IMG/VR virus record: IMGVR_UViG_3300008108_000044
Location: 1-64,000 of that record
Strand: one strand, 5' to 3'
DNA length: 64,000 bases
From: a virus
Of this stretch, positions 53 through 17,931 are shown piece after piece. The position numbers and the translations under genes were made by a program. A model generated the notes under the pieces. The model saw only the letters and a list, made by a program, of their open reading frames with translations, had not been told where the DNA came from and made no database searches. How positions within the stretch are numbered: the first letter of the stretch is position 1; every line of letters starts with the position of its first letter.

Positions 53-844
53 ATGGCATCATACGCAAGCTATAAAAAAATTGACGCTTCAGTGCAATTA
101 GATGATGGCACTCTTCCTACAGATGCGGTAGCATCTGGAGTATTTTGTACTTGGAATGTTAGATATTTTTATGGGAGTCCAAATAGATGTTCTGGTGGTT
201 GTTGCTGTCTTTGGACTGTTCCAACTGGTGTGAGAAGAGTTTATTTTGAACTGTGGGGATCTGGTGGAAATGGGCATGGAATGTGTTCAACCTCCAGATG
301 CCAACATTATGCTGGCGCTCAAGGTGGATTTTATAATACAAAAATGTTAACAGTCTGCCCAGGATGGCAATATACTATCTGTGCTGGCGGTGTATTCCCT
401 TGTGAATCTATAGAATGCGTATCTTGTCGTGGATGTGCATCTTATGTTAATGGATGCAATTTAAGTAATTTTTGTGCTGCAGGAGGAGATGCTGGATGTG
501 CAAATGGAGCATGGAACGAAGCTTGCTTCTCTGATTGGGGATATTGCTGCATGAGTCCTGGGGCATGGGGTGGTGATTTTGGAATGAGTAATCATAGAGG
601 TGCTTTCTTTATTCATCAGGCACAATGCCATTGTCAATGTCAAGGATCTTCACCAACGGCAGCTCCTTTTATTGGAACTCAAGTTCAAACTCAAATTCAT
701 GAATGTTGGATGCGTTGTGGATGCTGGACATCACCATATGGTCATGGTGGTCAAGGTGCAATGACAACTTACTGTGGTGGTGGTAACTGCTGCGGAACTG
801 GATCTACTGGAGGTCCAGGATTAGTTAAGATCAGTTTCTTATAA
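53..844 (+). CDS. Cysteine- and glycine-rich virion/adhesin-like protein
   Basis: This 263-residue protein contains 28 cysteines, many in CC, CxC and CxxC arrangements. It also has a glycine-rich section typical of phage tail-tip adhesins: 'YFELWGSGGNG' near residue 65, 'AQGGFY' near 90 and a GGxG-rich C-terminus ending 'GGPGLVKISF'. The glycine-rich pattern resembles tail-fibre glycine-rich domains. There is no signal peptide or membrane segment. The late promoter before it and the tail-assembly-type gene after it suggest a virion role. The cysteine density is odd for a protein made in a reducing cytoplasm and suggests extracellular disulfides or metal binding. A receptor-binding or tail-fibre tip role is inference. 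Confidence 0.6.
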   Translation: MASYASYKKIDASVQLDDGTLPTDAVASGVFCTWNVRYFYGSPNRCSGGCCCLWTVPTGVRRVYFELWGSGGNGHGMCSTSRCQHYAGAQGGFYNTKMLTVCPGWQYTICAGGVFPCESIECVSCRGCASYVNGCNLSNFCAAGGDAGCANGAWNEACFSDWGYCCMSPGAWGGDFGMSNHRGAFFIHQAQCHCQCQGSSPTAAPFIGTQVQTQIHECWMRCGCWTSPYGHGGQGAMTTYCGGGNCCGTGSTGGPGLVKISFL

Positions 845-879: not shown

Positions 880-1638
880 ATGGCAGTAAAAATTATTTCA
901 GTAGAATTCGATCTTGGTCTACCAAATGAATATATGGTAGATCACTCTCAGTCTGAAGGTAAGACCCGTAAGTTTACTTATCACGGACCAGATAAAATCT
1001 ATCTTCAACTTGGCGAAGATGGAAAAGAAAAATATGGACCATTAACTGCAGATGAAATCATGGATGGCAGACCAATGCCAGCTGATGTTGTAGAATGGTA
1101 TGAGGTTGATTGTGAAACCAATCCATTGGTTTGTCAACTCAGAGGACCTGTAGTTAATGAACTTCAGGAGATGTATGATGAGACTCCATATCCCCATCCA
1201 AATTCTCCAGTTCTTCCAGGAACTAGTCAAATGATGGTTTATGGTCCTCCAAAACCTTGTGATATCTATGATGCTTTAACTGGAATTAAGAAAGAAGAAG
1301 ATGGTTCACTGTCTGTAAGAAAACTCTCTACACTTGAAGCAATTCATGGTGATGAGCATACTATCACTGAACTTGATCTTAAAAAGCAAAGAAATCAACT
1401 ATTATCAAATAGTGATGGACAAGTTGCTCCTGATATGCCAACTGAATTAATTGAAGAGTGGAAAGCGTATCGTCAAACATTAAGAGACTTTCCTGCAGTA
1501 ATTGAAGAAGCTGGAATTGACCCTAACATTGCTTTCTATATGTTCCCAGAAACACCAAAATCAGCAACTTCAAACGCAGAACTGCAATTGTTAATTGAAC
1601 AGCAAAGATTGCAAGCAGAGGCAGCAAATAACGGGTAA
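880..1638 (+). CDS. Tail-assembly-chaperone-like structural protein
   Basis: This is a 252-residue acidic, soluble protein. Residues about 185-215 read 'EEWKAYRQTLRDFP', the signature of the phage tail assembly chaperone family (Phage_tail_APC type). That motif often sits at the C-terminus of proteins encoded beside tail-fibre genes. The N-terminal part (1-180) is not recognised. It directly follows the adhesin-like gene and has its own consensus late promoter, so a role in fibre folding or assembly is likely. The exact partner is inferred from position. Confidence 0.6.
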   Translation: MAVKIISVEFDLGLPNEYMVDHSQSEGKTRKFTYHGPDKIYLQLGEDGKEKYGPLTADEIMDGRPMPADVVEWYEVDCETNPLVCQLRGPVVNELQEMYDETPYPHPNSPVLPGTSQMMVYGPPKPCDIYDALTGIKKEEDGSLSVRKLSTLEAIHGDEHTITELDLKKQRNQLLSNSDGQVAPDMPTELIEEWKAYRQTLRDFPAVIEEAGIDPNIAFYMFPETPKSATSNAELQLLIEQQRLQAEAANNG

Positions 1639-1665: not shown

Positions 1666-2199
1666 ATGGATTATATTTTATACAAATTTGATTATATTAA
1701 AGATAATCAATTAGAATTGATAAAAGAACTGAAGATATCCCATGATAATATAGTAAAATATGGAGTCTTTGATACTACAAAGGCTTATATTTACTATAAT
1801 ATTTTTGGGGTATCTTCTCCGTCTATACACATGTATAGAATTTATCAAAAAGTTAGAGAGATTGTAAGAAGTAAATTTCCAAATGAAATACTTTGGATTC
1901 AATCTTGGTTAAATTATCATAATTATGATGAGGTTTTGGGTTGGCATAATCACAGTGCCAGTTGGCATGGGTATATATCTATAGAACCACAAGATACGGT
2001 AACTGAATTTGAGAATTGGACAATAGATAACGAATGTGGAAATATTTATTTTGGACCAGGAAGGCATAAGCATAGAGTAGTCAACCAAAGAAAGTATAAG
2101 GGAAAAAGAATCACACTTGGATTTGACATTATATTTGAGAATGATTATACTGGAGAGGTATCCCCAACGGAAAACTTTGGAGCAATTCCATTATTATAA
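1666..2199 (+). CDS. Putative Fe(II)/2-oxoglutarate oxygenase, HxH type
   Basis: This 177-residue protein has 'GWHNHSASWHGYISIEP' near residue 88, then 'GNIYFGPGRHKHRVV' and 'KRITLGFDI'. That order (H-x-H, a second His after a beta turn, then R) matches the small phage 2OG-Fe(II) oxygenase family related to PF13759. Such enzymes hydroxylate or otherwise oxidise small molecules, sugars or proteins; the substrate here is unknown. The stop overlaps the start of the next oxygenase gene (TAATG), so the two are probably translated together. No canonical HxD is present, so activity is uncertain. Confidence 0.6.
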   Translation: MDYILYKFDYIKDNQLELIKELKISHDNIVKYGVFDTTKAYIYYNIFGVSSPSIHMYRIYQKVREIVRSKFPNEILWIQSWLNYHNYDEVLGWHNHSASWHGYISIEPQDTVTEFENWTIDNECGNIYFGPGRHKHRVVNQRKYKGKRITLGFDIIFENDYTGEVSPTENFGAIPLL

Positions 2200-2903
2200 T
2201 GTTTGAAATTAATACTGATTTAAAAGTAAAGATTCAAAAAATAGATGATATATATTGGTCTGCTACAGATACTGGATTGGTTACTTTCAATTCAGATGTA
2301 ATTGTAGAAAAAATGATTTTTATTATTGATGATTTTTATCAAAATCCAGATGAAATACGCGAACTGACAAAAGAATCTGAAGTATATACTGATAAAGATC
2401 GACTAGCTGGTGCAATAGGTAGAAGGGTTTGGAGAGAAGAACCAGAATTGATGTATGAAATGGCACATCAAATGTGTCATGTATTTGAGCAGTTATGTCA
2501 ACATGAAGATTGGCATTTGGAATTTGATAAACAACATCATTATACTAAATGGGATGCTATGAGGTTCGTTGTTAATGTGACGAACAATCAAGAAATTATT
2601 GATTCTGATAGAGACTGGGATACCATTTGTCATATTGATGGTCCGTACAATAAATGGGCATCTTTAGTTTATTTAAATACTCCAGAAGAGTATGGAGAAG
2701 AAGAGTCTACTCCTGGAACTGGTTTTTATTCTGTAGTTCAACCAGAAGCAGATGGAAAAATAAATAAACCAAAGTTGCAATATGTTTGCCCAATGAAGTA
2801 TAATAGGGCAGTATTGTATGATGCTAACATGATCCATGGTGCAATCATGGAGACTGATATGTATAAAGACTATGATAGACTTACTCAAATCATGTTCTTT
2901 TAA
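2199..2903 (+). CDS. DUF6445-like 2OG-Fe(II) oxygenase
   Basis: This 234-residue protein has 'CHIDGPYNKWASLVYLN' (H-x-D iron ligands, near residue 147). After a glycine-rich turn come 'NRAVLYDANMIHGA' (distal His) and 'DRLTQIMFF' (Arg that would bind 2-oxoglutarate). This is the double-stranded beta-helix pattern of DUF6445 and prolyl-hydroxylase-like enzymes, with all expected ligands visible. It is translationally coupled to the upstream oxygenase and sits at the edge of the sugar-modification cluster. The substrate is unknown. Confidence 0.7.
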   Translation: MFEINTDLKVKIQKIDDIYWSATDTGLVTFNSDVIVEKMIFIIDDFYQNPDEIRELTKESEVYTDKDRLAGAIGRRVWREEPELMYEMAHQMCHVFEQLCQHEDWHLEFDKQHHYTKWDAMRFVVNVTNNQEIIDSDRDWDTICHIDGPYNKWASLVYLNTPEEYGEEESTPGTGFYSVVQPEADGKINKPKLQYVCPMKYNRAVLYDANMIHGAIMETDMYKDYDRLTQIMFF

Positions 2904-2969: not shown

Positions 2970-4082
2970 ATGAGGTCAAAGGCGTTTTTTATTAACGGCG
3001 GAGCGGGGCGTGTAATTTGCTCTATCCCTGCGCTTGAAAAATATGCAGAAACTCACGACGATTTTATTATCGTTTGTGAAGGAGGGACAGATTTTTACAA
3101 GGGTCATCCTACTTTACATGGAAAGGCATTTGATAATTGGCATAAAGGATTATTTGAAAACGAGATTAAACACAGGGATTGTGTATCTCCAGAACCATAT
3201 CGAGATTGGCATTATTACAATCAAAAATGCAGTTTAGCACAGTCATTTGATATTATAATCAATGAATTGGATTCTCCTAGAGATCTTCCTAAACCTAATA
3301 TTGTATTGAGTAAAGCAGAGATTGTTCAGGGTTTTAATATTGTTGAAGAGGTAAAAGCAGGAACGGGCAAAGACAAGGTTTTAGTTGTTCAACCTTTTGG
3401 TAGGTCAGTTGAACAATTGGGATCTGACTTTATTATTGATACTACTTCTAGAAGTTTTTCTTTAAATAATATTGTTAATATTATTAATGAACTTAAAAAA
3501 GATTATGCAATCATTATAATGAGTGAAATTCATTTTCCTTTAGAAGAAAATGAAGACAAGTCAAATTATAAAGTTGCTAGACCACAAATTCAAGATATGA
3601 GAATTTGGTCAGGAGTGATTGCTGCTGCAGATCACTTCTTGGGTTGTGATAGTATGGGTCAACATATTGCTAGAGCACTAGACAAGACTGCTACAGTTGT
3701 TACTGGTTCTACCTATCCAATTAATATTTCTTATCCAGATCATGCTGATTTTGATGTGATTGATGTTGGTGAAGGTAGACGAGTATATTCACCAATCCGA
3801 ATTGCAATAGATGAAGTTTCGGATCGTCTTAATGATGAATCAATGGAGTTGAGTCAATCTCAAGTTAAGGAAATTATTGATTCTGTGAAAAAAAGAATGG
3901 GAAAACCTGCTGCTTACACGGGATCCCTAACACTTCCACAAAAAGATATCGCTTCAAATGAATGTTGCCCTGCAACAGAAAAAAGACAAACCTTTAAATT
4001 TGATCCAACAAAAAATTCAAAGGGGTTTGGTAAACCACTTTTAGATAAAGAAACAGAAAATATCCTTCAAAAACTTAAGTGA
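2970..4082 (+). CDS. Glycosyltransferase family 9-like (heptosyltransferase-type)
   Basis: This 370-residue GT-B-like protein has an N-terminal 'INGGAGRVICSIPAL' loop (like the GDxL/GxA donor start of GT9). A second Rossmann half follows with 'VVQPFGRS' near 143 and 'AADHFLGCDSMGQHIARAL' near 216, matching the 'ADxFLGxDSGxxHxAxA' motif of ADP-heptose:LPS heptosyltransferases. Family members transfer heptose or related sugars from nucleotide donors. HldE- and HldD-like genes lie downstream, so an ADP-heptose-type donor is plausible. The last 80 residues look unstructured and are extra to the family. It heads a tightly packed rightward operon. Confidence 0.7.
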   Translation: MRSKAFFINGGAGRVICSIPALEKYAETHDDFIIVCEGGTDFYKGHPTLHGKAFDNWHKGLFENEIKHRDCVSPEPYRDWHYYNQKCSLAQSFDIIINELDSPRDLPKPNIVLSKAEIVQGFNIVEEVKAGTGKDKVLVVQPFGRSVEQLGSDFIIDTTSRSFSLNNIVNIINELKKDYAIIIMSEIHFPLEENEDKSNYKVARPQIQDMRIWSGVIAAADHFLGCDSMGQHIARALDKTATVVTGSTYPINISYPDHADFDVIDVGEGRRVYSPIRIAIDEVSDRLNDESMELSQSQVKEIIDSVKKRMGKPAAYTGSLTLPQKDIASNECCPATEKRQTFKFDPTKNSKGFGKPLLDKETENILQKLK

Positions 4083-4090
4083 GGTAAATC

Positions 4091-5893
4091 ATGGCAGAAT
4101 GGATCGCAGCTATTGCCAGAGGGCATAACTCTGGTGTTTGTCTTTTACATAATGGAGAAATTGTTTTATCCATTGAAGAGGAAAGACTTTCTAGACATAA
4201 GTATGATGGTGGACCTCTAGCGTCCATGGTTAAGATACTTGAGTATACTAAAAAACTTGATTATCTTGTAATCGCACATACTCAACCTTTGGGGTCAGCA
4301 GGAACAATTGATTTTACTGGTGATGATATTTACACTGGTATGGCAAGAAAACTTGGGTTGATTGATAGGAATCAAGATCCATATGATCATCCTCAAGTTA
4401 TAGATTTGAGTAGAACTCACCATAAACTTCATGCTGCATGTGCCTTTTATAGGTCTGGATTTAAATCTGCAGTATCTGTTGTTGTGGATGGTGCAGGTAC
4501 ATTTATTCCAATGAATATTGGAAGATCTCAAGAGATGAGTTGGGAACTTGAATCTATATTTTCTTGTGAATATCCAGCAAATATCAAAACTTTGTACAAA
4601 CATCAAGCAGGAAAAGGACCTTGGGGATCTGCATTAATTCCTCAGGTTGATAGTTCTGGTGAAGATGAGACTGGCACTCATGAATTAATTTTGGATGAGA
4701 GTGCTGGTATTACTAAAGCATATGAAGCAGTTACTCAGTATTGTGGATGGCCTCCTATTGAAGCTGGTAAAACTATGGGATTATTCCCATATGGAAAACC
4801 AAATAAAAAAGTACCTAAAATTTATACTGATGGTGGTGGGGGATTGTGGAAAACTTCTGATAGAAATGTAATTGTTCCAACCTACCCAAATGGCGCAGTT
4901 GTTAATGAAGGTAGATATGAATTTTTGTATACGCCAGAAGATTGTAAAGACTTGACATTGCTTGAAAATCGTAGAGATATGGCATATGCAATTCAAGTAG
5001 AATCTCAACAAATGGTATTGGATTTAATTCGTAAAGCAGTTGAGATGTCTGGTAATAATAATGTAGTTCTTTCTGGTGGATATGGACTTAACTGTGTTGC
5101 AAATTATTGGTATCTTGATCAGTTAAAGGATGAGAATATTAACTTGTTTGTAGAACCAGTAAGTAATGATGCTGGTACTGCAATAGGTGCTGCTCTACTG
5201 ACTTACTATAGAATTACAAACAGTAAAAAAATTAAAAAACAAATTGATAATCTTTATACTGGACCATCTTATATGTACACTGAACAACAAATACAAGAAG
5301 TTGCTTCAAAATATAACGCAACTTCTGTTACTCAAGCTTCCTATGAAGATGTAATTGATTTGATTACGGATAAAAATATTGTTGCTTTGTTCCAAGGAAG
5401 ATCTGAAGCAGGTCCTCGTGCTCTTGGCAATCGTTCTATTCTTTATGATCCTCGTGATCCAGATGGAAAAGATCATGTAAATAGAATCAAACGTAGAGAA
5501 TATTTTAGACCTTTTGCTGGATCTATTCTTAAAGATTATGTTCATGAGTGGTTTGATCTTCGTGGAATGGATGAGACTCCATTTATGATGTATGCTGTAA
5601 ATTGTCGAGATGGTATAGAAGAAAAAATTCCAGCAATTATTCATGTTGATGGAACTTGTAGAATTCAAACGGTAACTCAAGAACAAAATAAGCATTATTA
5701 TAATCTAATTAATACTTTTTATGAGAGAACTGGTTGTCCTATAATTTTTAATACATCATTTAATCTTGGTGGGGAACCTCTTGTTGAAACTTTAGACGAT
5801 GCTTGTAGAACTCTTGCTAACAGTTTAATTGAATATCTCTATCTACCTGAATATCAAACACTAATTACTATTAAAAATGAAACCCCTTCGTAG
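4091..5893 (+). CDS. Carbamoyltransferase, NodU/CmcH (TobZ) family, full length
   Basis: This protein is 600 residues long, the usual family length. The N-terminal Kae1-like ASKHA domain shows 'ARGHNSGVCLLHNGEIV', 'EEERLSRHKY', 'HHKLHAACAFYRSGF' and 'VLSGGYGLNCVAN'. The C-terminal domain carries the invariant 'GRSEAGPRALGNRSI' and 'NRIKRREYFRPFAGSIL'. The family makes carbamoyl-adenylate from carbamoyl phosphate and ATP and carbamoylates hydroxyls of sugars or natural products. A GAGG ribosome-binding site precedes the ATG. It overlaps the halogenase gene by 17 bp, implying co-translation. The acceptor is unknown. Confidence 0.88.
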   Translation: MAEWIAAIARGHNSGVCLLHNGEIVLSIEEERLSRHKYDGGPLASMVKILEYTKKLDYLVIAHTQPLGSAGTIDFTGDDIYTGMARKLGLIDRNQDPYDHPQVIDLSRTHHKLHAACAFYRSGFKSAVSVVVDGAGTFIPMNIGRSQEMSWELESIFSCEYPANIKTLYKHQAGKGPWGSALIPQVDSSGEDETGTHELILDESAGITKAYEAVTQYCGWPPIEAGKTMGLFPYGKPNKKVPKIYTDGGGGLWKTSDRNVIVPTYPNGAVVNEGRYEFLYTPEDCKDLTLLENRRDMAYAIQVESQQMVLDLIRKAVEMSGNNNVVLSGGYGLNCVANYWYLDQLKDENINLFVEPVSNDAGTAIGAALLTYYRITNSKKIKKQIDNLYTGPSYMYTEQQIQEVASKYNATSVTQASYEDVIDLITDKNIVALFQGRSEAGPRALGNRSILYDPRDPDGKDHVNRIKRREYFRPFAGSILKDYVHEWFDLRGMDETPFMMYAVNCRDGIEEKIPAIIHVDGTCRIQTVTQEQNKHYYNLINTFYERTGCPIIFNTSFNLGGEPLVETLDDACRTLANSLIEYLYLPEYQTLITIKNETPS

Positions 5894-7397
5894 AATTGTA
5901 ATCGTTGGCGGCGGAACCTCTGGATGGTTAACCGCTGCTTTTTTACTTAAAAAAGTAAGATCTTATTGTGAGATTGTAGTTGTTGATAAGACACAATCAG
6001 AAACTGTTGGTGTTGGTGAGGCAACTGTGCTTTCATTTAAACAGTTTATGAATTTTTGTGGTTTTGATGCTGAAGAATGGGTTCCAGCTATAGATGCGAC
6101 TTTTAAAAGTGGAATCTTGTTTACTGACTGGCAAAAAGAAGGAGCAGATCTTTGGCATCCATTTGCCTATCCCGAGTTCAAACACCTCAAAACAAATCTT
6201 TTAAATCTTTGGACATTAAATAAGGATAAAGATTTTTTTACTCATGGTTGTGCATTGTACAATCCAGCGGTAACTGAAAATAAAATTGATCCAACAAACT
6301 TAGGAACATATGCCAATCATATTGACTGTGGTAGGTTGGTTCAATATATTAAAACAAAAATATCGAATAAAATAACTTTTGTAAGTCAAGAAGTTGTAGA
6401 GGTTAAAAGAAATTCTAACGGTGGAATACAGTGTATCATCTTAGAATCTGGAGAAGAAATTGAATCAGATTTATTTGTTGATTGCACTGGATGGAAAAGA
6501 CTATTGGGATCTAAACCAGATACTGTTAATTGTAGGGACAGATTGTTTTGTGATACTGCAGTTGCAGGACATGTTCCCTATGATGATATTGAACAAGAGT
6601 TAACGCCTTATACAAAATGTTGCGCTGTTGATCATGGATGGATATGGAAAATTCCAACACAATCAAGAATTGGATCTGGATTAGTATTTAATCGTGATAT
6701 AACTGATCCAGAAGAAGCAAAAGAATACTTTGTTAGACATTGGAATAATAGGATAAGTAAAAATGATTTAAAATTATTGGATTGGACTCCATATTATCAT
6801 AATAATTTTTGGGAAGATAATGTTGTTTGCATTGGATTATCCGCAGGATTTATTGAACCTTTAGAAAGCACTGGAGTTGCATTAATATGTGCTGGTATTA
6901 TTGAACTTGCAGAAGGACTTAAAGGTAATTACTACAATGTAATGGATACTCTTGTTTACAATAAAAAAATGAAAGCGTTTTTTGAAAATTGTGTTGATTA
7001 TGTAAGTATGCATTATTCACATAATCAAAGAACAACGGGTAAGTTTTGGAAGTTTGTTCAAGATACTTATAATATTACTGAGACACAAAAGTTTTTTGAA
7101 AATGAAGTTCAAAACAATCCATATGAATTACCAACAGATGGTGATTATATGTTTGTTGGAGAAAATTGGGGTGTTTTATTGTGTCAATTATTAAATAAAA
7201 ATAATATTGAACCAAAAAATAATGGAATAACTTCTGATCAAGCATTGATCTTATCTGAAGACTTCTATAAAAATGAAATTGAAAAACATAAAAAATCTAT
7301 TTTACATAAAAAATTTGTTGATGATCTTTTATCTAGAATTGATAGAGGAGAACCAGCAAATATTCCTTTTAACTCGTCTAGTCCCGTTAAGATGTGA
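5877..7397 (+). CDS. Flavin-dependent (tryptophan-type) halogenase
   Basis: This protein is 506 residues long, the normal length for the family. The FAD-binding 'VIVGGGTSGWLTA' (GxGxxG) is at the N-terminus. The halogenase diagnostic WxWxIP appears as 'WIWKIP' near residue 257. The Lys of 'ATFKSGI' near residue 78 fits the catalytic lysine that handles hypohalite. 'EPLESTG' near 328 carries the conserved Glu. The family uses FADH2, oxygen and halide to halogenate aromatic rings; a relative from cyanophage Syn10 (VirX1) is a known iodinating enzyme with broad substrates. It sits between a carbamoyltransferase and an oxygenase. No dedicated flavin reductase is seen in the window. Confidence 0.88.
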   Translation: MKPLRRIVIVGGGTSGWLTAAFLLKKVRSYCEIVVVDKTQSETVGVGEATVLSFKQFMNFCGFDAEEWVPAIDATFKSGILFTDWQKEGADLWHPFAYPEFKHLKTNLLNLWTLNKDKDFFTHGCALYNPAVTENKIDPTNLGTYANHIDCGRLVQYIKTKISNKITFVSQEVVEVKRNSNGGIQCIILESGEEIESDLFVDCTGWKRLLGSKPDTVNCRDRLFCDTAVAGHVPYDDIEQELTPYTKCCAVDHGWIWKIPTQSRIGSGLVFNRDITDPEEAKEYFVRHWNNRISKNDLKLLDWTPYYHNNFWEDNVVCIGLSAGFIEPLESTGVALICAGIIELAEGLKGNYYNVMDTLVYNKKMKAFFENCVDYVSMHYSHNQRTTGKFWKFVQDTYNITETQKFFENEVQNNPYELPTDGDYMFVGENWGVLLCQLLNKNNIEPKNNGITSDQALILSEDFYKNEIEKHKKSILHKKFVDDLLSRIDRGEPANIPFNSSSPVKM

Positions 7398-8023
7398 TGG
7401 ATTTAGTTAAAGCTTACAAAAATTTTATCAGTGAAGAAGAAAAAAATATTCTTAATACTTGGACCCTATCGAATTATAAAAAGAATTATTTTATAGATCC
7501 AAAAATGGATTCAAGAAAACTTGAAAATACAAAATTAACTACAAGATTTGCTAACCCTTTAGTTAATTATGGCAATCCTCTTTTAGATTCTTCTTCTCAT
7601 GATCATATAAATTTTGTAGTTTCTTCTAATCCAAATTTTGTTTATCCTCAAGTTGCTTATGATATACAAAAAAGAATAGCATTGACGTTTGAATTTGAAG
7701 ATTTTGGATTATCTCCAGTTGGTAAAGATGGAATTGTTAGTGAGATAAGTTTTGAAGGAGGAACTGTGCATCCACATGTTGATCCAGTTTGGTTTGACGG
7801 AACACAAACAGTTCATTTTAATTTCATAACACAAAAACCTTTGTCTGGGGGAATAACATATATTGAAAATCAACCATGGGAAGTTGAAGAAACTGATTTA
7901 TTGTCATATATTGTATCAAAAGCTGAACATAAAGTTGATGAGATTATAGGTACTAAAGAAAGAATACTTTGGGTATTCAGTTTTATGTTGTCTGAAAAAG
8001 ATACTGAGAGGATATTTTCGTGA
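7397..8023 (+). CDS. 2OG-Fe(II) oxygenase (HxD..H..R)
   Basis: This 208-residue protein has 'HPHVDPVWFDGTQTVHFNF' near residue 125 (H-x-D ligands). Next come 'GGITYIENQPW', a late His in 'KAEHKVDEI' and an Arg in 'KERILWVFSF'. This is a complete double-stranded beta-helix ligand set. The ATG at 7397 overlaps the halogenase TGA and is preferred to the in-frame GTG one codon upstream. Its stop overlaps the GTG of the adenylyltransferase gene. Substrate unknown; the context suggests tailoring of the same product as the halogenase. Confidence 0.65.
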   Translation: MDLVKAYKNFISEEEKNILNTWTLSNYKKNYFIDPKMDSRKLENTKLTTRFANPLVNYGNPLLDSSSHDHINFVVSSNPNFVYPQVAYDIQKRIALTFEFEDFGLSPVGKDGIVSEISFEGGTVHPHVDPVWFDGTQTVHFNFITQKPLSGGITYIENQPWEVEETDLLSYIVSKAEHKVDEIIGTKERILWVFSFMLSEKDTERIFS

Positions 8024-8427
8024 AAAAAGTTTTTGTAAATGGAACGTTTGATCTCCTTCACAAAGGACATCTTGAACTTTTAAATTTTGCTAAGTCTTAT
8101 GGTGATTACTTGATAGTTGCCATTGATACTGATGAACGAGTAAGAGAAAAAAAAGGGTTAACTAGACCAATATATAATCAAGACGATAGAAAATTTTTTT
8201 TAAATATGTTAAAACCTGTTAATCAGGTTGAGTTATTTTCTAGTGATGAAGAATTAGAAAAATTGATAAAAGGATTTAATCCTGATATAATGATTGTAGG
8301 ATCTGATTGGAAAAATAAACCAGTAATTGGTTCTCAATATGCAAAAAGATTAATTTTTTTTGATAGAATAAGTGACTATGCAACCACAAAAACAATACAC
8401 AGTATTATTAATAGGGGAAACCTGTGA
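8020..8427 (+). CDS. HldE-type (RfaE2) nucleotidyltransferase
   Basis: This 135-residue single-domain nucleotidyltransferase starts with GTG. It shows 'NGTFDLLHKGHLELL' (GxFDxxHxGH), 'VAIDTDERVREKKG', 'RPIYNQDDR', 'PDIMIVGSDW' and a C-terminal 'TTKTIHSI' like the 'STT' end of HldE and TagD. It would activate a sugar phosphate with ATP or CTP. Because the next gene matches the HldE kinase domain and an HldD epimerase lies 3.6 kb on, D-glycero-D-manno-heptose 1-phosphate adenylyltransferase is the best reading. A glycerol-3-phosphate-type cytidylyltransferase is the alternative. Confidence 0.72.
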   Translation: MKKVFVNGTFDLLHKGHLELLNFAKSYGDYLIVAIDTDERVREKKGLTRPIYNQDDRKFFLNMLKPVNQVELFSSDEELEKLIKGFNPDIMIVGSDWKNKPVIGSQYAKRLIFFDRISDYATTKTIHSIINRGNL

Positions 8428-9157
8428 GGATAGTTATATCTACGGAACAGTAGATAGAATAAGTCCAGAAGCTCCTATACCAATTTTAAATTATGAACGA
8501 ACAGAAACTTCTTTAGGAATGTCTGCTAACGTTAAGAATAATCTTGAATCTTTTGGAGTATTTGTAAATCATATTACAAATAAAAAACTCATTAAGAAAA
8601 GAAGATTTGTTCATAGTGGATCTAATCAACAAATATTAAGAGTTGATGAAGATAATTTTGTTGATCCAATAAAACCATCTGAGGTTAGAAGTGCCTTTCT
8701 TCATTTAAATTATGATGCTGTAGTTATTTCTGATTATGATAAAGGATTTTTAACAACGCAAGATCTCAAAGTATTCTGTCAAAATTTTAAAGGTCCAGTA
8801 TTCATTGACACTAAGAAAAGAGATTTGTTTACTGAACCGAACGTAATATTTAAAATAAATCAGAGAGAGTATAACAATCTTATTACAAAACCAGAACCAC
8901 AGCATTTAATTGTTACAAAAGGATCGTCTGGAGTTGAGTATTGTAAATTATTATATCCAGTTGATAAAGTTAATGTGTTTGATGTTGTTGGTGCAGGAGA
9001 CACCTTCCTTGCAGCATTCGTTTATGCATTTTTACAATATGAAAATTATGAGGCAAGATTAGATTCTTCTATTAGATTCGCTAATAAAGCAGCTGCGATA
9101 TCTGTTCAACATTATGGATGTTATACTTTAACACAAGAAGATATTAGGAGTATTTAA
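8378..9157 (+). CDS. HldE-type (RfaE1) sugar kinase, PfkB family
   Basis: This PfkB kinase is about 259 residues, shorter than the 310-320 residue HldE kinase domain. 'GTVDRISPEAPIPIL' is the RfaE1 hallmark. 'SLGMSANVKNNLESFG' follows, where the family has GGAANVA. The C-terminal 'DVVGAGDTFLAAF' holds the catalytic Asp. It should phosphorylate D-glycero-D-manno-heptose 7-phosphate at C1. The ATG at 8378 is preferred to the GTG two codons upstream; either start overlaps the transferase gene by about 50 bp. In bacteria the two domains are usually one protein with the kinase first. Here they are separate genes in reverse order. Confidence 0.75.
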   Translation: MQPQKQYTVLLIGETCEDSYIYGTVDRISPEAPIPILNYERTETSLGMSANVKNNLESFGVFVNHITNKKLIKKRRFVHSGSNQQILRVDEDNFVDPIKPSEVRSAFLHLNYDAVVISDYDKGFLTTQDLKVFCQNFKGPVFIDTKKRDLFTEPNVIFKINQREYNNLITKPEPQHLIVTKGSSGVEYCKLLYPVDKVNVFDVVGAGDTFLAAFVYAFLQYENYEARLDSSIRFANKAAAISVQHYGCYTLTQEDIRSI

Positions 9158-9159
9158 AA

Positions 9160-10236
9160 ATGTCTGTTTATTGGGGAGTAAATTTATCTCATGATGGATC
9201 CATTTGTCAGTTGAATGATGATGGAGAAATTGATTGGTTTGTTGAGGAAGAAAGATATGCGAGAGATAAACAACTTGAATTGCCGTTATCTCCTATTCCT
9301 TTTTTAGATTACAGTGAAGAGATGTATCCATTGCAAATATCAGGTCTTTATGAAATTTGGGATAAAAGAAAAATAGAGGAATCCGCCAGACAATTTTCTA
9401 CTTTAGTTCAAAAATTTTTTAATAGACAAAACTGTAGTAGTAAAAAGAAAGTAACATATGATTTATTTTTAGAACATCATGTTTATCATGCGGCTTGTGG
9501 TTTTTACAATTCTGGATTCAAAGATGCTGCAGTATTAGTCGTTGATGGCATGGGAAATTATATTAACGATGATTATCATGAAGTTGAATCAATATATAAA
9601 TTTCAATATCCAAATAAGTGCAAATGTTACCATGTTAATGTAACAAATTCATTTATGAAATCTGATAAACATCCCTTTGACAGGCAACCAATAGGTATTG
9701 GCATGATTTATAGTGCAATATCAGACTACCTTGGATTTGGATCTTTGGGATCAGGTAAGGTTATGGGTATGTCTGCGTATGGGAAAGAAGATAAAAATAT
9801 AAAATCTTTTATTGTTGATGGTAAATTAGATTCCAGTCAATTCTATAGAACTAAATACGGAATTAATTTTATACCATATGATTATGTAAATTTTAAAGGT
9901 TTTTCAGTTGATAAAAACAATCCGAAGATACAAAATCTTTATAATCTTGCATATAGGATTCAAAAAGATTTTGAAGATTATATGAGTAATTTAATAATGT
10001 ATACCCTTCAAATAACTGGAGCAAAAAATATTGTTTTGACTGGTGGATGTGCTTTAAATTGCGTTGCAAATTATAAGTACTTGGATATCTTACCAAAAGG
10101 TGTAAAATTATATGTAGAACCAATTTCTACTGATGCTGGTACTGCAATCGGTCTTGCTAAATTGCAGTACCATCAACAAACACAATCTATGGATCCAAAA
10201 CCACTTAAAACTTTATATCTGGGATTAGAACAATGA
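9160..10236 (+). CDS. Carbamoyltransferase homolog lacking the C-terminal domain
   Basis: This 358-residue protein matches only the N-terminal ASKHA half of NodU/CmcH proteins. Visible motifs are 'GVNLSHDGSICQL', 'EEERYARDKQ', 'HHVYHAACGFYNSGF', 'GSGKVMGMSAYG' and 'VLTGGCALNCVAN'. It ends at 'LKTLYLGLEQ', just where full-length relatives continue into the 'EAGPRALGNRS' domain that binds carbamoyl phosphate and ATP. The stop is clean and overlaps the next ATG (ATGA), so the truncation looks stable rather than a sequencing break. It may be inactive, regulatory, or a partner of one of the two full-length copies. An AGGAG ribosome-binding site precedes it. Confidence 0.75.
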   Translation: MSVYWGVNLSHDGSICQLNDDGEIDWFVEEERYARDKQLELPLSPIPFLDYSEEMYPLQISGLYEIWDKRKIEESARQFSTLVQKFFNRQNCSSKKKVTYDLFLEHHVYHAACGFYNSGFKDAAVLVVDGMGNYINDDYHEVESIYKFQYPNKCKCYHVNVTNSFMKSDKHPFDRQPIGIGMIYSAISDYLGFGSLGSGKVMGMSAYGKEDKNIKSFIVDGKLDSSQFYRTKYGINFIPYDYVNFKGFSVDKNNPKIQNLYNLAYRIQKDFEDYMSNLIMYTLQITGAKNIVLTGGCALNCVANYKYLDILPKGVKLYVEPISTDAGTAIGLAKLQYHQQTQSMDPKPLKTLYLGLEQ

Positions 10237-10565
10237 AAACTTATTGCGTTGATATTGATGGTGTTATTGCTAAACCACTTGGTATATGTAAAACTTGTAA
10301 ATATGAGTCATCTCTTCCCATAAAAAAGAATATTGAAAGGATAAACAAACTATATGACGAGGGAAATATAATAAAATATTTTACTGCGAGAGGTATGGGA
10401 ACGTATCAAGACGATGGTAACCTTGCGTCTGCAAGATGGAAAGAACTTACTGAACTCCAATTAAGAATTTGGGGATGTAAATACCATCAATTGATTATGG
10501 GTAAACCATCTGCGGACTACTATATAGATGATAAAGCAATAAATTCAGATGACTTCTTTAAATAA
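10233..10565 (+). CDS. HAD-superfamily sugar-phosphatase-like protein
   Basis: This 110-residue minimal HAD protein has 'YCVDIDGVI' (motif I, DxD), 'YFTARGMG' (motif II, Thr), 'MGKPSADYYIDDKAI' (Lys of motif III and DD of motif IV). Similar short HAD proteins lie in capsule and LPS clusters. It might supply the heptose-bisphosphate phosphatase step (GmhB), but it is shorter than GmhB and lacks its zinc-binding cysteine pattern, so that is only a suggestion. It overlaps genes on both sides. Confidence 0.65.
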   Translation: MKTYCVDIDGVIAKPLGICKTCKYESSLPIKKNIERINKLYDEGNIIKYFTARGMGTYQDDGNLASARWKELTELQLRIWGCKYHQLIMGKPSADYYIDDKAINSDDFFK

Positions 10566-10902
10566 ATTTGTCCCTAAAGGATGGGGATATGAAAAGTGGA
10601 TAGTCAATAACGAAAAGTATTGCGGTAAACTTTTATTCTTTGAAAGAAATAAAAGATGTTCTTGGCATTATCATAAAGTAAAAGAAGAAACTTTTTACTT
10701 GCATAGTGGTAAAATATATTTGTGGTATGGATGGGATGAAGATCTTGCAAAAGCTGAAATGAAAATAATGGAACCAGGTGATGCATTTCACGTTCCAATC
10801 GGATTAAAGCATCAGATGATTGCTTTGGAAGATTCTGAATTGTTTGAATTTTCTACAGAACATTTTGATGATGATAGTTATAGGTTGATACGAGGTGATT
10901 GA
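10549..10902 (+). CDS. Cupin-domain protein
   Basis: This 117-residue single cupin has motif 1 'CSWHYHKVKEETFYLHSG' and motif 2 'PGDAFHVPIGLKHQMIAL', giving the usual three His and one Glu metal ligands. It ends 'FEFSTEHFDDDSYRL', as in mannose-6-phosphate-isomerase-type cupins found in surface-sugar clusters. It may be a sugar isomerase or epimerase, or a binding protein. It overlaps the HAD gene by 17 bp, consistent with translational coupling. Confidence 0.68.
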   Translation: MTSLNKFVPKGWGYEKWIVNNEKYCGKLLFFERNKRCSWHYHKVKEETFYLHSGKIYLWYGWDEDLAKAEMKIMEPGDAFHVPIGLKHQMIALEDSELFEFSTEHFDDDSYRLIRGD

Positions 10903-11489
10903 TGATGTTGACGTTCAAAGATTTAATATATGAAAAGCAGGATGCAATAACAAAACAAGAATGTGCAGAATTTATAAAATGGTTTTGGAATAATACTGAT
11001 TTGCATGTTCAAGGAAAAGTTTATGGTGGAGTAGATGCATCATCTTTAAGTAACACTGTAAATTTAGACAGAAAAAATACAACTCAAGCATATCCAAAAC
11101 CAGAAGATCCTATTTCAGATACTATAACTAAAATTATTTTTTCTGGTTATGATGAATATGCCTCTAAATTACCAGTACCACAAGGACAACCATTATGCAC
11201 TACTACATATTCGATACGAGTATATCGCAAGGGTGAAGGAAAGTTTTTAGAACACGTTGATCAATCTGCTGGTCCAAATGTCACGAGAATTTTTGGTGTA
11301 ATTTTATATCTTAATACTGTGGATGATGGTGGAGAAACAGATTTCTTAGATTATAATTTAAAGATAAAACCAGAAGCTGGAAAATTACTTATATTCCCTT
11401 GTAATTATCTTTATCGCCATCAAGGAAATATTCCTATCTCAGATGACAAATATATTGTAACCGCTTTTATTAATTTTGCAGATGTATAA
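10902..11489 (+). CDS. Prolyl-4-hydroxylase-like 2OG-Fe(II) oxygenase
   Basis: This 195-residue protein has 'KGEGKFLEHVDQSAG' (H-x-D) near residue 112, then 'GVILYLNTVDDGGETDF', 'AGKLLIFPCNYLYRHQG' (distal His) and 'DKYIVTAFINF' (Lys in the 2-oxoglutarate position, as in P4H). All expected residues are present. The ATG overlaps the cupin stop and a GAGG ribosome-binding site lies just before it; an ATG one codon on is also possible. Substrate unknown. Confidence 0.72.
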   Translation: MMLTFKDLIYEKQDAITKQECAEFIKWFWNNTDLHVQGKVYGGVDASSLSNTVNLDRKNTTQAYPKPEDPISDTITKIIFSGYDEYASKLPVPQGQPLCTTTYSIRVYRKGEGKFLEHVDQSAGPNVTRIFGVILYLNTVDDGGETDFLDYNLKIKPEAGKLLIFPCNYLYRHQGNIPISDDKYIVTAFINFADV

Positions 11490-12096
11490 TACTAATATTA
11501 CTAAACCATTTGGACCATGTATTTTAGAATGTATGTGTCCTAAAAATATATTAAAAAATTTTAATTCTTTTGTTGATGATATGGATCAAGAAACAAAAGA
11601 ATTGTGTTCTTCCAAATATAGTAAAGTTGATGGATTTCCTGATCTATTGGAACGTGGATTTGAAATTATATACTTGACCTCCAATCAGTGCGAAGAGATT
11701 GGATTTTCTAAATTTATTGCCGATGTTACGCCAGAATATCTTAAAACATTTGGAATTAATAGTGCTGAAATATTTTTTACTCCCGCACATTTTTCAGATG
11801 TATTTGTTGATGTTTGGGTTAATCGTTATTTCGTTGGAGATTATACGCCACCCCATGATCATAAGGGACATATATCTGGAATAACAATATTGGATCTTCC
11901 TAAAGATTCTGATTGGTATGATTTGCACAACTTAGAATTTATTTGGAATAATGAACATCATAGACCAGATCAAGAAGTTGGAAAGACTTTTTTGTTTCCC
12001 AGTACTCTTATGCATTGGGTTGTAAAACAAAAAAGTCTTTTAGAAAGAAGAACAGTAAGTTTTAATTTACTTGTAAATACTCCTCAACAGACTTAA
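11482..12096 (+). CDS. Putative 2OG-Fe(II) oxygenase, HxH type
   Basis: This 204-residue protein has 'RYFVGDYTPPHDHKGHISG' near residue 120. 'GKTFLFPSTLMHWVV' and 'ERRTVSFNL' follow, fitting the PF13759-like fold with His, distal His and Arg. The N-terminal 100 residues are not recognised. It is the last rightward gene of the cargo operon and its 3' end overlaps the convergent HldD gene by 35 bp. Iron-ligand assignment is uncertain because the first motif is H-D-H rather than H-x-D. Confidence 0.58.
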   Translation: MYNTNITKPFGPCILECMCPKNILKNFNSFVDDMDQETKELCSSKYSKVDGFPDLLERGFEIIYLTSNQCEEIGFSKFIADVTPEYLKTFGINSAEIFFTPAHFSDVFVDVWVNRYFVGDYTPPHDHKGHISGITILDLPKDSDWYDLHNLEFIWNNEHHRPDQEVGKTFLFPSTLMHWVVKQKSLLERRTVSFNLLVNTPQQT

Positions 12097-12871
12097 ATTT
12101 ATAATTACCAATCCACTTCATATCTGCACATGTGTATGTTTGGTACTTACCTCGTAAATGCTCTGGGAAGGGAATGGTATTGATAGTACCGTTCTCTTTT
12201 TTTGCAACTAACTCTGCTACATGTTGAAATGATACTGGAGACCCTGTTCCAAGGTCATATATGCCACTCGGAGAGTTGTTATTAAGAACAATATCAATAA
12301 CATCATCTACACATATAAAATCTCTCAAGAATCTATCGGAACCTTCAAAAAGATTTAAAGAACCAGTTTCCTTAATCTCTTTGGTAAATTTACTTACAGG
12401 ACTTGCTTGATTTCCTTTATTTTCTTCTCCACTTCCATAAACATTAAAGTATCTAAATCCTTGAACGAGAGAAAATTTATCTATATTATCTAGAACAGTA
12501 TAATCAACTTGCAATTTAGATATTGCGTATTGATTTAGTGGATTTATTGTACTCTTTTTTTGATGTATATTTTGGTTACCGTAAACGGATGCTGACGATG
12601 CGTATTTAATTGGGATTTCATATTGGACTGCAATATTCAAAAGAGCACATGAGAATGCAACGTTATAGTGCCAAAGCTTATGTAAATCCTTTTCTGTGGT
12701 TGATGATATTGCTCCTTGATGTAGTATCAAAGATACTTTTTCCCATTGATCAAATTCTCTTAATAGTCTCCAAGAATCTTCTTGACCTATTAATAAAATA
12801 TCTTCTCCACTAGTAATCTTGTTTGCAAAATGACTTCCAATGAATCCAGATGAACCAGTAAGTATGATCAT
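12062..12871 (-). CDS. hldD: ADP-L-glycero-D-manno-heptose-6-epimerase-like (HldD)
   Basis: This 269-residue short-chain epimerase has 'ILTGSSGFIGSHFANKI' at the N-terminus (NADP-binding TGxxGFIG), 'SSASVYGN', the catalytic 'YAISK', 'RYFNVYGSGEENKGNQASPV' and 'RDFICVDDVIDIV'. This combination is characteristic of HldD/RfaD, which inverts C6 of ADP-heptose; E. coli HldD is about 310 residues, so this is a compact form. It is on the strand opposite to the rest of the cluster. An AGGA ribosome-binding site precedes the ATG. With the split HldE genes it gives three steps of ADP-L,D-heptose synthesis. Confidence 0.85.
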   Translation of the reverse strand: MIILTGSSGFIGSHFANKITSGEDILLIGQEDSWRLLREFDQWEKVSLILHQGAISSTTEKDLHKLWHYNVAFSCALLNIAVQYEIPIKYASSASVYGNQNIHQKKSTINPLNQYAISKLQVDYTVLDNIDKFSLVQGFRYFNVYGSGEENKGNQASPVSKFTKEIKETGSLNLFEGSDRFLRDFICVDDVIDIVLNNNSPSGIYDLGTGSPVSFQHVAELVAKKENGTINTIPFPEHLRGKYQTYTCADMKWIGNYKFKSVEEYLQVN

Positions 12872-12886
12872 AATTTTCCTATTATC

Positions 12887-12893
12887 ATAAATA
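12887..12893 (+). promoter_or_regulatory. T4-type late promoter
   Basis: ATAAATA lies 29 bp before the ATG at 12923, in the 51-bp gap between the divergent hldD and structural genes. Confidence 0.55.
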
Positions 12894-12922
12894 ATAACAT
12901 AAAAAAGTCTAAAAGTATATCC

Positions 12923-13579
12923 ATGGCGTTTGGATCTCTAGCATCATACCCAACTACAGATAATTTTGCTCATATACTTTATACATCACCTTCATCTAAT
13001 TTTGTTGAAGGTAGAGTTTACGCTGTTAATATGGGATCTGTTCCAGTAAAAATTAGAATTGCAGTTCTGGGAACCGCTAATATAGATGACCTAGCAATAT
13101 CTGATTACATTATATATAACCATTCGATTCAAATTGGTGATAGGTTTGTAACGGATAAAATATTTTTAAAGGATGGAGAATCTGTCGTAGTACGTGCAGA
13201 TGTACCAGGTGTAAAATTTAGTTTCCGTGGGTCTGAGGTAGGATTAACAACATCTCTTTGTGGAATTATATCCGCGTTCAGTCCGTCAACAAGTCTAAAG
13301 ATAGGAGCGGGGCAAACTGTATTTAATTTACCAGCATCAATGGTAGAAACAGATGCAAATCTTTATATTACAAACACTTCTCCAGATTATGTTGAAGTAA
13401 GTGTTGGCATTGGAACTACGATTGGCTCCAATCATTATCTGGTGTATAATCAAAGAGTAGAACCTGGTCACTTTTTCTGTCAAGACGATATTAAATTGGG
13501 CGCAGGAGAAATTATTTTTGCCAAGTCTACTTCAACAAATGTAAACATTGTAGCATTAGGAAAAACAACTCATAGATGA
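12923..13579 (+). CDS. Virion structural protein with two tandem beta domains
   Basis: This 218-residue protein is rich in Thr, Val, Ile and Gly, with no Trp. The two halves align by eye. 'VYAVNMGSVPVKIRIAVLG' then 'YIIYNHSIQIGDRF' (about 32-75) corresponds to 'LYITNTSPDYVEVSVGIG' then 'YLVYNQRVEPGHFF' (about 140-185). Each copy has a following acidic 'LKDGE' or 'LGAGE' turn. The pattern suggests duplicated beta-sandwich modules of a capsid or tail decoration protein. A late promoter supports a virion role. The exact location is unknown. Confidence 0.6.
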   Translation: MAFGSLASYPTTDNFAHILYTSPSSNFVEGRVYAVNMGSVPVKIRIAVLGTANIDDLAISDYIIYNHSIQIGDRFVTDKIFLKDGESVVVRADVPGVKFSFRGSEVGLTTSLCGIISAFSPSTSLKIGAGQTVFNLPASMVETDANLYITNTSPDYVEVSVGIGTTIGSNHYLVYNQRVEPGHFFCQDDIKLGAGEIIFAKSTSTNVNIVALGKTTHR

Positions 13580-13818
13580 TGAAATTTACAGTATATTCTA
13601 AGGACGGTTGTCCATATTGCAGCAAGATTGAACAACTACTTCAAGTTGCAGAACTTCAACATGTAATTTATAAATTGGGAAGAGATTTTACTCGTGAAGA
13701 GTTTTACTCTGAGTTTGGACCTGGGTCAACTTTCCCACAGGTTGTTCTAAATGATCAGCATTTGGGTGGTTGTACAGATACAGCACGTTATTTAAAAGAA
13801 AATAATATTATTGCTTAA
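13576..13818 (+). CDS. grx: Glutaredoxin
   Basis: This 80-residue thioredoxin-fold protein has the dithiol active site 'CPYC' at residues about 12-15, the cis-Pro segment 'TFPQVVL' and the glutathione-binding 'GGCTDT'. It reduces disulfides and can serve ribonucleotide reductase, as T4 NrdC does. Its ATG overlaps the upstream stop. Its stop shares the palindrome TTAA with the stop of the convergent bilin reductase gene. Confidence 0.9.
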   Translation: MMKFTVYSKDGCPYCSKIEQLLQVAELQHVIYKLGRDFTREEFYSEFGPGSTFPQVVLNDQHLGGCTDTARYLKENNIIA

Positions 13819-14459
13819 GCAAGATCGAATAAGAAGTTATTAATATACTTTCTAGCAAATTCTTTATCATAATATGATTTAAGAATTCCATATGCGGGAT
13901 CTGTATATGATAGGTGATGATCGTAACCTATTTGAAATATGTGGGATTGACCAGTCCCACATTTTTTTATGCAATCATTATACCGTTCTAAGTACAAATC
14001 TAGTTTGGTTAAATACTCTTCATAAAAATTTTTATCAGTATTTTTTAACCATAATTTTTTTGAAAAATATTTGTCTAAATCATATACCTTAGATACATTT
14101 TTTACTCTATCTGGTTGGTCGCTAAGGTATGGTAGAATATATTCATTCTCATATTCTTTATCCATTTTTAGTGGATGAAAATCTATAGTGCCAAAATATT
14201 TTTTATCTGAACACGCTACAAATTCTGTACCAAAAATTGGATTGAGATATTGGAAGTCTGGATATATAACAAGAGACTCTGCGATAAATTTATTTTTAAT
14301 ATTTAATTCACACAATCTAATTCTTCTTAACTTTTCTGTTCTCCATACATATGACTTTATTGTTGAGTTATCATCTTTAATTTCTTGATCTAACCAATGA
14401 GGCAGTTCTACATGAATTAGATTTGAATACTTATTAAATAATATATTCTTTACGCTCAT
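13815..14459 (-). CDS. Ferredoxin-dependent bilin reductase (PebS/PebA/PcyA family)
   Basis: This 214-residue protein matches the FDBR fold. 'LVIYPDFQYLNPIFGTEF' and 'SDKKYFGTIDFHPL' (about 83-115) correspond to the PebS segment with catalytic Asp105. 'YFSKKLWLK' and 'YLTKLDLYLERYNDCI' follow. 'YDHHLSYTDPAYG' keeps the Asp equivalent to PebS Asp206, and the end 'YINNFLFDL' is typical. These enzymes reduce biliverdin to phycobilins. Cyanophage PebS makes phycoerythrobilin in one protein of about 233 residues. PebA, PebS or PcyA-like specificity cannot be settled here. It is an auxiliary host-pigment gene on the reverse strand. Confidence 0.82.
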   Translation of the reverse strand: MSVKNILFNKYSNLIHVELPHWLDQEIKDDNSTIKSYVWRTEKLRRIRLCELNIKNKFIAESLVIYPDFQYLNPIFGTEFVACSDKKYFGTIDFHPLKMDKEYENEYILPYLSDQPDRVKNVSKVYDLDKYFSKKLWLKNTDKNFYEEYLTKLDLYLERYNDCIKKCGTGQSHIFQIGYDHHLSYTDPAYGILKSYYDKEFARKYINNFLFDLA

Positions 14460-14480
14460 TACGAAAGCACTATTATTCTG

Positions 14481-14489
14481 TATTTATTA
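14481..14489 (-). promoter_or_regulatory. Candidate late promoter for the bilin reductase
   Basis: On the minus strand the sequence reads TAATAAATA, about 22 bp before the bilin reductase ATG, in a 29-bp divergent gap. Its edge overlaps the ATG of the carbamoyltransferase on the other strand. Confidence 0.4.
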
Positions 14490-17724: not shown

Positions 17725-17931
17725 ATGTCCAGTGGATTTGGTGCTGAAAAAATTAAAGATGGCAAAGCAGTCGTAACAATTCATACTGATGAGGTTTCTA
17801 AACTTTTAAAGGAATATAAAAAACTTAAAAAGTATATGAAATCTTCTTTGTATAAAGTTAAAGTTATGGATGGCACAGAAGAGACTGTAAAGAATCTTTT
17901 GGAAGAATACGGCGATGATGAACTCACTTGA
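17725..17931 (+). CDS. Hypothetical small protein
   Basis: This 68-residue Lys- and Glu-rich protein has a probable helix around 'EVSKLLKEYKKLKKYMKSSL'. A GAGG ribosome-binding site precedes the ATG. It overlaps the sulfotransferase start by 17 bp. Function unknown. Confidence 0.6.
   Translation: MSSGFGAEKIKDGKAVVTIHTDEVSKLLKEYKKLKKYMKSSLYKVKVMDGTEETVKNLLEEYGDDELT

Follow-up and report, generated by a model that had tools for sequence, protein, structure and literature searches.

A cupin as candidate heptose-phosphate isomerase in a cyanophage gene block that may supply carbamoylated heptose to tail fibres

The 64,000-nucleotide window analysed here (positions 1 to 64,000 of IMG/VR virus record IMGVR_UViG_3300008108_000044) belongs to a 79.5 kb record of a marine cyanophage of T4-like type, recognisable by its genes for baseplate and tail, by speD and by a bilin reductase gene. 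Twelve open reading frames (ORFs), tightly packed and mostly overlapping by a few bases, occupy positions 2970-12871 (Table 1). We lean towards the reading that this block makes adenosine diphosphate (ADP)-L-glycero-D-manno-heptose and puts the heptose, probably carbamoylated, on the phage's own tail fibres. Of its two parts, a complete ADP-heptose pathway with an isomerase outside the SIS fold is the rather likely one, and delivery of carbamoylated heptose to virion fibres is a finely balanced, more tentative one. The cassette itself is partly known; its new aspects are a candidate isomerase, the cupin, that would complete the pathway, a split carbamoyltransferase and the link with tail fibres.

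The proposed pathway would start from host sedoheptulose 7-phosphate. The cupin, as a metal-dependent ketose-aldose isomerase, would convert it to D-glycero-D-manno-heptose 7-phosphate, the job of GmhA elsewhere; the N-terminal HldE domain (HldE-N) would then phosphorylate C1, the small HAD protein would remove the 7-phosphate, the C-terminal HldE domain (HldE-C) would add adenosine monophosphate (AMP), and HldD would epimerise C6. The GT9-fold protein would move the heptose, most likely onto the Cys/Gly-rich fibre proteins encoded upstream, and a sugar hydroxyl would be carbamoylated by CarbA, and by CarbN using borrowed carbamoyl-AMP. The halogenase and 2-oxoglutarate (2OG) oxygenases would contribute variable modifications, possibly of fibre protein side chains. 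In common with the Escherichia coli pathway (GmhA, HldE, GmhB, HldD), the block has a homologous kinase, adenylyltransferase and 6-epimerase, the last with its catalytic residues kept; it differs in having a cupin and no GmhA, an HldE that is split and shortened, and a 110-residue HAD protein where E. coli has GmhB.

A preliminary description of this window had listed GT9-like, HldE-like adenylyltransferase and kinase, HldD, HAD, cupin and halogenase genes in one dense block, which family matches and, for the GT9-like protein, the predicted fold confirm. It had also read the heptose route as partial, with GmhA not seen and GmhB uncertain; both of these reservations hold and HldE and HldD are supported, but the route now looks more complete, with the cupin a strong contender for the isomerase role. 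HldE-C scores 103 bits against RfaE domain II (TIGR02199, curated cut-off 181.5 bits) versus 72 against glycerol-3-phosphate cytidylyltransferase (TagD), HldE-N scores 140 bits against RfaE domain I (TIGR02198, cut-off 345 bits) versus 51 against ribokinase, and HldD scores 218 bits against TIGR02197 (cut-off 274.6), and matches PDB entry 1eq2 at 5.5e-43. Aligned with E. coli HldD, the phage protein conserves Y140, K144 and K178, the Tyr-x-x-x-Lys and second Lys of the SDR family, which we take to be the catalytic residues. At the same place in a distant relative (locus L039), the two HldE halves form a single 414-residue protein with 406 bits against bifunctional HldE (cut-off 521), so the split phage genes quite likely descend from HldE. 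The HAD protein finds its best match, a weak one, in the EcbF/BcbF-like family (33 bits, TIGR01689, 4e-8); it has no GmhB match and is not of the HAD-IIIA type with zinc loop that defines GmhB. It may still carry out the GmhB step, and we think that it probably does. Its PHROG and GenBank label, 'phosphoheptose isomerase', is rejected, as HAD motifs are present and an SIS match is absent. In nearly all relatives of the block, HldD runs opposite to the other genes, and the 3' end of its gene overlaps the neighbour.

The case for the cupin begins in the phages. Twelve phage records, of which six are complete genomes, yielded no GmhA-type SIS_2 protein, and the cupin itself is no GmhA homologue (SIS fold; PF13580, TIGR00441). 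Its distribution among cyanophages almost coincides with that of HldE-C and spans two genomic settings. In Bellamy and SynMITS9220M01 it lies between an HddA-type GHMP heptose-7-phosphate kinase (279-287 bits, under cut-off) and an HddC-like transferase, so that, with the HldE-kinase loci, it partners heptose-7-phosphate kinases of two unrelated folds. The best PDB sequences for the cupin profile are D-lyxose/D-mannose and L-ribose isomerases (4e-4 to 4e-3), and the metal ligands of cupin ketose-aldose isomerases, here H40, H42, E47 and H88, are invariant in the alignment. Its predicted structure (predicted local distance difference test, pLDDT, 89.5) is about equally close to the cupin domain of CapF, to D-lyxose isomerases, to archaeal phosphomannose isomerase and to KdgF. 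The cupin thus shares a fold, an HxH..E..H metal set and weak sequence kinship with the cupin sugar isomerases (D-lyxose isomerase, archaeal phosphomannose isomerase), from which it differs in its smaller size, its proposed substrate and its position fused to or beside heptose-7-phosphate kinases. The PHROG label 'cysteine dioxygenase' is unsupported by profile or by gene contexts. A search of the literature for cupins as heptose isomerases or in connection with ADP-heptose found nothing relevant, most subscription journals being outside its coverage.

Cellular genomes carry the argument further. In a Parcubacteria and a Levybacteriota locus (L061 and L062) an HldE kinase has the cupin as its C-terminal domain and is encoded beside HldE-C, GmhB, HldD and GT9 genes, and neither genome has a gmhA above cut-off. 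We then drew 192 Patescibacteria genomes from the phylum and 281 from a class (a third draw overlapped the earlier ones and yielded no further kinase-positive genomes); 21 encode an HldE kinase of at least 170 bits. Fifteen of these have gmhA (183-226 bits) with no cupin match at the reporting limit, the other six have the cupin (117-168 bits) with no gmhA, and none has both or neither, an exclusion expected by chance once in 54,264 if the genomes were independent, which they are not fully. Among ten more genomes, in which the kinase-like matches are weaker (115-148 bits) and a strong cupin is absent, seven carry gmhA-like genes and three neither. Three arrangements of the cupin occur: fusion C-terminal to the kinase (G006, G007 and G233), fusion N-terminal to it (G176 and G198) and a separate neighbouring gene (G020). 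In many genomes gmhA is likewise found next to the kinase gene, and in G134 the two share a single open frame. To explain the distribution of the cupin on the kinase tree, three switches are required, at least two of which are forced by supported branches; G020 is nested in the gmhA clade beside its sister G092, with the cupin at the position where G092 has gmhA. In Erysipelotrichaceae (L063-L076), more distant cupins directly follow genes for hexulose-6-phosphate synthase and 6-phospho-3-hexuloisomerase, and may possibly be sugar-phosphate isomerases too. Taken together, the Patescibacterial fusions, the exclusion and replacement of gmhA, the two unrelated kinase partners and the Erysipelotrichaceae contexts make the cupin the best candidate for the sedoheptulose-7-phosphate isomerase, a chemistry that we consider likely. 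More ambitiously, the cupin could represent an unrecognised isomerase class that has displaced GmhA several times, in cyanophages and in several Patescibacteria lineages, alongside phage heptosylation of Cys/Gly-rich tail-fibre proteins; this broader proposal is speculative and somewhat doubtful as a whole. Contigs from Planctomycetaceae, Euryarchaeota, Rhodobacteraceae, Patescibacteria and Thaumarchaeota bins (L052-L055, L057, L059, L060 and L074) carry cyanophage-like cassettes, two of them (L055 and L074) the whole block; we left the cellular matches at 60-70% identity (L052-L060 and L074) out of the cellular evidence, since they are likely phage contigs binned into the wrong genomes.

The most serious competing explanation is that heptose 7-phosphate comes from the host's GmhA and that the cupin does something else, for example a CapF- or RmlC-like 3- or 5-epimerisation of a nucleotide sugar. 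The CapF cupin domain is indeed the best structural match. Such a role would not account for the mutual exclusion with gmhA and its replacement in place, for fusion to the kinase in both orders, or for the pairing with two unrelated heptose-7-phosphate kinases, and we give it perhaps a minor share of the probability.

The link to fibres rests on gene neighbourhood and on the predicted fold of the protein encoded at 2970-4082. This protein has no Pfam match, its alignment retrieved nothing real from PDB sequences, and its profile aligns only weakly, over 41 columns, with E. coli GT9 proteins, so the GT9 assignment rests on fold. The predicted structure (pLDDT 79) matches GT9 with Z 20.1 (4.1 A over 276 residues), WaaF with 18.0 (4.0 A over 265), TibC with 16.8 (3.9 A over 261) and WaaC with 16.6, the next GT-B protein reaching 12.1; the model thus has a GT9-type GT-B fold. 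As a query, the protein retrieved 40 IMG/VR loci. Upstream sequence is available for 39 of these, and in every one the gene comes just after Cys-rich fibre-like genes and the gene of a tail-fibre assembly chaperone. The window's fibre-like protein, encoded at 53-844, corresponds to the last of three paralogues that stand in a row in related loci (L007 and L008) and contains 28 Cys and 44 Gly in 263 residues, with highly conserved Cys positions; such a Cys content is unusual for a phage structural protein. The arrangement resembles the TibC/AAH (BAHT) protein heptosyltransferases, which act on autotransporters, in its GT9-like fold, its supply of ADP-heptose and the proposed acceptor gene adjoining; it differs in that the phage protein has Arg for the catalytic Asp and in that the putative acceptor is a phage fibre-like protein. 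Cyanobacterial lipopolysaccharide (LPS) has been reported to be without heptose (PMC4515613, PMC4390846). Because fibre and chaperone genes always adjoin, the fold is kin to TibC and cyanobacterial LPS is reportedly without heptose, we favour a virion fibre over host LPS as the acceptor, as a tentative choice with nearly even odds.

Activated heptose could instead be destined for the host surface (LPS or capsule), altering the receptor and excluding other phages. These genes were first described as LPS genes (PMC3037559), and in S-SM2, P-TIM68, Bellamy, S-T4 and Sf-CH8, HldE or Hdd genes, together with the cupin, share islands with capsule-type genes and several glycosyltransferases of ordinary kind. 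A scan of viral contigs with the HldE kinase alone gave four loci, and the capsule-like islands of S-SM2 and P-TIM68, with HldE, HldD, HAD and cupin genes, have no carbamoyltransferase. There is, however, no glycosyltransferase island in the window or its syntenic relatives, in which the fibre and chaperone genes are tied to the block throughout, and the reported lack of heptose in host LPS also argues against a surface role. We regard it as unlikely here.

Carbamoylation of the sugar is plausible, although a sugar hydroxyl as the actual site is a tentative assignment. Carbamoylated heptose is known in Pseudomonas LPS. CarbA has the Kae1-like N and YrdC-like C domains of NodU/TobZ-type O-carbamoyltransferases, and its close PDB relatives are TobZ, GdmN and novobiocin carbamoyltransferase. 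CarbN is without the YrdC-like C domain that makes carbamoyl-AMP; because its length is nevertheless kept under purifying selection (336-385 residues in 11 loci and in S-SSM7 and Sf-FS3), it probably takes carbamoyl-AMP from CarbA. Where a single carbamoyltransferase had been described, the block therefore holds two, one complete and one reduced to the N domain, and a third lies outside it. Of the three oxygenases reported earlier, those at 10899-11489 and 11476-12096 pass Pfam, the ORF at 7394-8023 has no significant family match in Pfam or PHROG, and two more oxygenase-like proteins are encoded upstream. The suggested sugar product, halogenated or carbamoylated, is plausible in its second form only. 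Flavin halogenases act on aromatic rings, so a Trp or Tyr side chain or a small aromatic compound is a more likely substrate than the sugar; a halogenated sugar was rejected on enzyme class and because the halogenase occurs in only about half of otherwise intact clusters. The window's enzyme is a flavin-dependent halogenase with the GxGxxG and WxWxIP motifs and the catalytic Lys and Glu of PrnA in the alignment. It belongs to the same superfamily (E 4e-52) as VirX1 of cyanophage Syn10, an active viral halogenase (PMC8407142), to which it is about 30% identical and from which it differs in gene setting.

The core of the block is a conserved unit. It stands in the same order, with HldD reversed, beside tail genes in the isolates S-SSM7, S-CAM1, P-SSM2 and Sf-FS3, and is whole in 20 of the 22 loci with enough downstream sequence, the exceptions being L039 (fused HldE, no HAD) and L041. 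The halogenase and most oxygenases are variable add-ons: of 23 loci, 11 have the halogenase and 11 have CarbN, while the oxygenases are present in 3 to 12 and the family of ORF 7394-8023 in 3. Against a relative with 69-91% protein identity, the ratio of nonsynonymous to synonymous substitution rates (dN/dS) is about 0.05-0.25 for every block gene, with CarbN at 0.11 (the CarbB line of the table was mis-paired and not used). Gene order shared by four isolates and about 20 contigs, together with low dN/dS throughout, indicates that the block is not a chance assembly; the prospect that the genes might turn out to occur separately in other phages is thereby answered, since they travel together. 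The core combination was already on record: Sullivan et al. 2010 (PMC3037559) noted T4-GC 304, 305, 307 and 308 as 'LPS genes' that co-occur in three cyanophages, and left undecided whether they function. The window, with the same families in the same order, is a further member of these clusters (T4-GC 302-308; P-SSM2, S-SSM7, S-SM2), which we read as a heptose cassette linked to fibres and using a cupin isomerase, where the earlier reading was LPS genes or filler DNA.

Two further explanations fare poorly. Enzymes of the kinds found here (a carbamoyltransferase, a halogenase, oxygenases) typically serve in tailoring, and GdmN, novobiocin carbamoyltransferase and TobZ are close PDB relatives of CarbA, as would suit a small diffusible halogenated and carbamoylated compound of the kind made by bacterial natural-product clusters, but a scaffold synthase is absent, the halogenase and oxygenases come and go, and the block lies in the late structural region, which makes such a product very improbable. 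Least credible of all is the idea that the genes are functionless hitch-hikers, or filler for packaging, within a hypervariable region, as raised by Sullivan et al. 2010 (PMC3037559) for cyanophage LPS genes, given strong purifying selection on every gene and an order conserved across genera.

Several observations nonetheless weigh against a heptose pathway that serves the fibres. HldE-C, HldE-N and HldD, though best matched by these equivalogs, all score under the curated NCBIfam cut-offs, and the small HAD is far from GmhB. In sequence the cupin resembles sugar isomerases only weakly (E 4e-4), and many activities share the cupin fold, with CapF, KdgF and oxalate decarboxylase ranking equally high, so the fold alone is indecisive. 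In SynMITS9220M01 another part of the island encodes a GmhA-like, though divergent, SIS protein (47 bits), so cupin and SIS protein are not strictly exclusive in phages, and the Patescibacterial genomes are mostly metagenome-assembled, so that an absent gmhA can be an assembly gap. In the GT9-like protein, a GGAGR motif with an Arg14 invariant in 23 phage sequences stands where WaaC (D13) and WaaF have a catalytic Asp, which puts its chemistry in doubt; judged by this motif, it may use other chemistry or be no enzyme. Finally, L041 has the fibre, GT9 and CarbA genes with no heptose genes within 10 kb. Downstream of these genes, that locus (5778-15670) encodes a radical-SAM-like protein and two halogenases, which makes it a variant modification block in the corresponding position.

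If our preferred reading is true, it would close the gap in a pathway that abundant marine phages have been known to carry since 2005-2010 and that was never explained, their hosts' LPS being reportedly heptose-free. It would supply a non-SIS enzyme for the first committed heptose step, also in Patescibacteria seemingly without GmhA, and correct the widespread labels 'cysteine dioxygenase' for the cupin and 'phosphoheptose isomerase' for the HAD. Should the sugar go on fibres, the phage would build and attach its own virion glycan, and cultured isolates exist (S-SSM7, P-SSM2, S-CAM1). ADP-heptose is a known signal to animal innate immunity, which gives its makers a wider interest.

Table 1. 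Genes of the block and its upstream flank in the window
Feature	Position	Strand	Evidence
Cys/Gly-rich fibre-like protein, proposed sugar acceptor	53..844	+	Composition, conserved Cys; weak Gly_rich_2 match, E 0.048; virion role putative
Tail-fibre assembly chaperone (Phage_tail_APC)	880..1638	+	Pfam PF16778 1.3e-8, above cut-off; PHROG tail fiber assembly
2OG-Fe(II) oxygenase-like protein	1666..2199	+	PHROG 81 (2OG oxygenase) E 1.1e-6; Pfam E just 0.025
DUF6445 protein, oxygenase-like	2199..2903	+	PF20043 1.2e-7; 2OG assignment from HxD..H pattern only
GT9-fold (heptosyltransferase-like) protein	2970..4082	+	Predicted fold; motif GGAGR, invariant Arg14
CarbA, complete NodU/TobZ-type O-carbamoyltransferase, core gene	4091..5893	+	Carbam_trans_C 4.7e-60, N 3.8e-25
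Flavin-dependent halogenase, variable add-on	5877..7397	+	Strong family match; PrnA motifs
Possible 2OG oxygenase, rare add-on	7394..8023	+	HxD motif only
HldE C-terminal domain, heptose-1-phosphate adenylyltransferase	8020..8427	+	TIGR02199 103 bits; HKGH motif
HldE N-terminal domain, heptose-7-phosphate kinase, short, PfkB	8372..9157	+	TIGR02198 140 bits; GAGD and NxxE kept
CarbN, carbamoyltransferase N (Kae1-like) domain only, variable but conserved add-on	9160..10236	+	HHxxH and D kept
Small HAD phosphatase, candidate GmhB substitute	10233..10565	+	EcbF/BcbF TIGR01689 4e-8; DxDG, GKP..DDK motifs
Cupin, proposed sedoheptulose-7-phosphate isomerase	10549..10902	+	Cupin family match; invariant H40, H42, E47, H88
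2OG-Fe(II) oxygenase, variable add-on	10899..11489	+	PF13640 5.8e-11
2OG-Fe(II) oxygenase, variable add-on	11476..12096	+	PF13759 9.7e-10
HldD, ADP-glyceromanno-heptose 6-epimerase	12062..12871	-	TIGR02197 218 bits; 1eq2 5.5e-43

Beyond the block, the third carbamoyltransferase, a complete one at 14489-16108, follows the bilin reductase (13815-14459, minus strand) and a glutaredoxin, a group seen again in relatives. A sulfotransferase-like ORF at 17915-18628, close to the cluster, is shared with loci L047 and L048 only.

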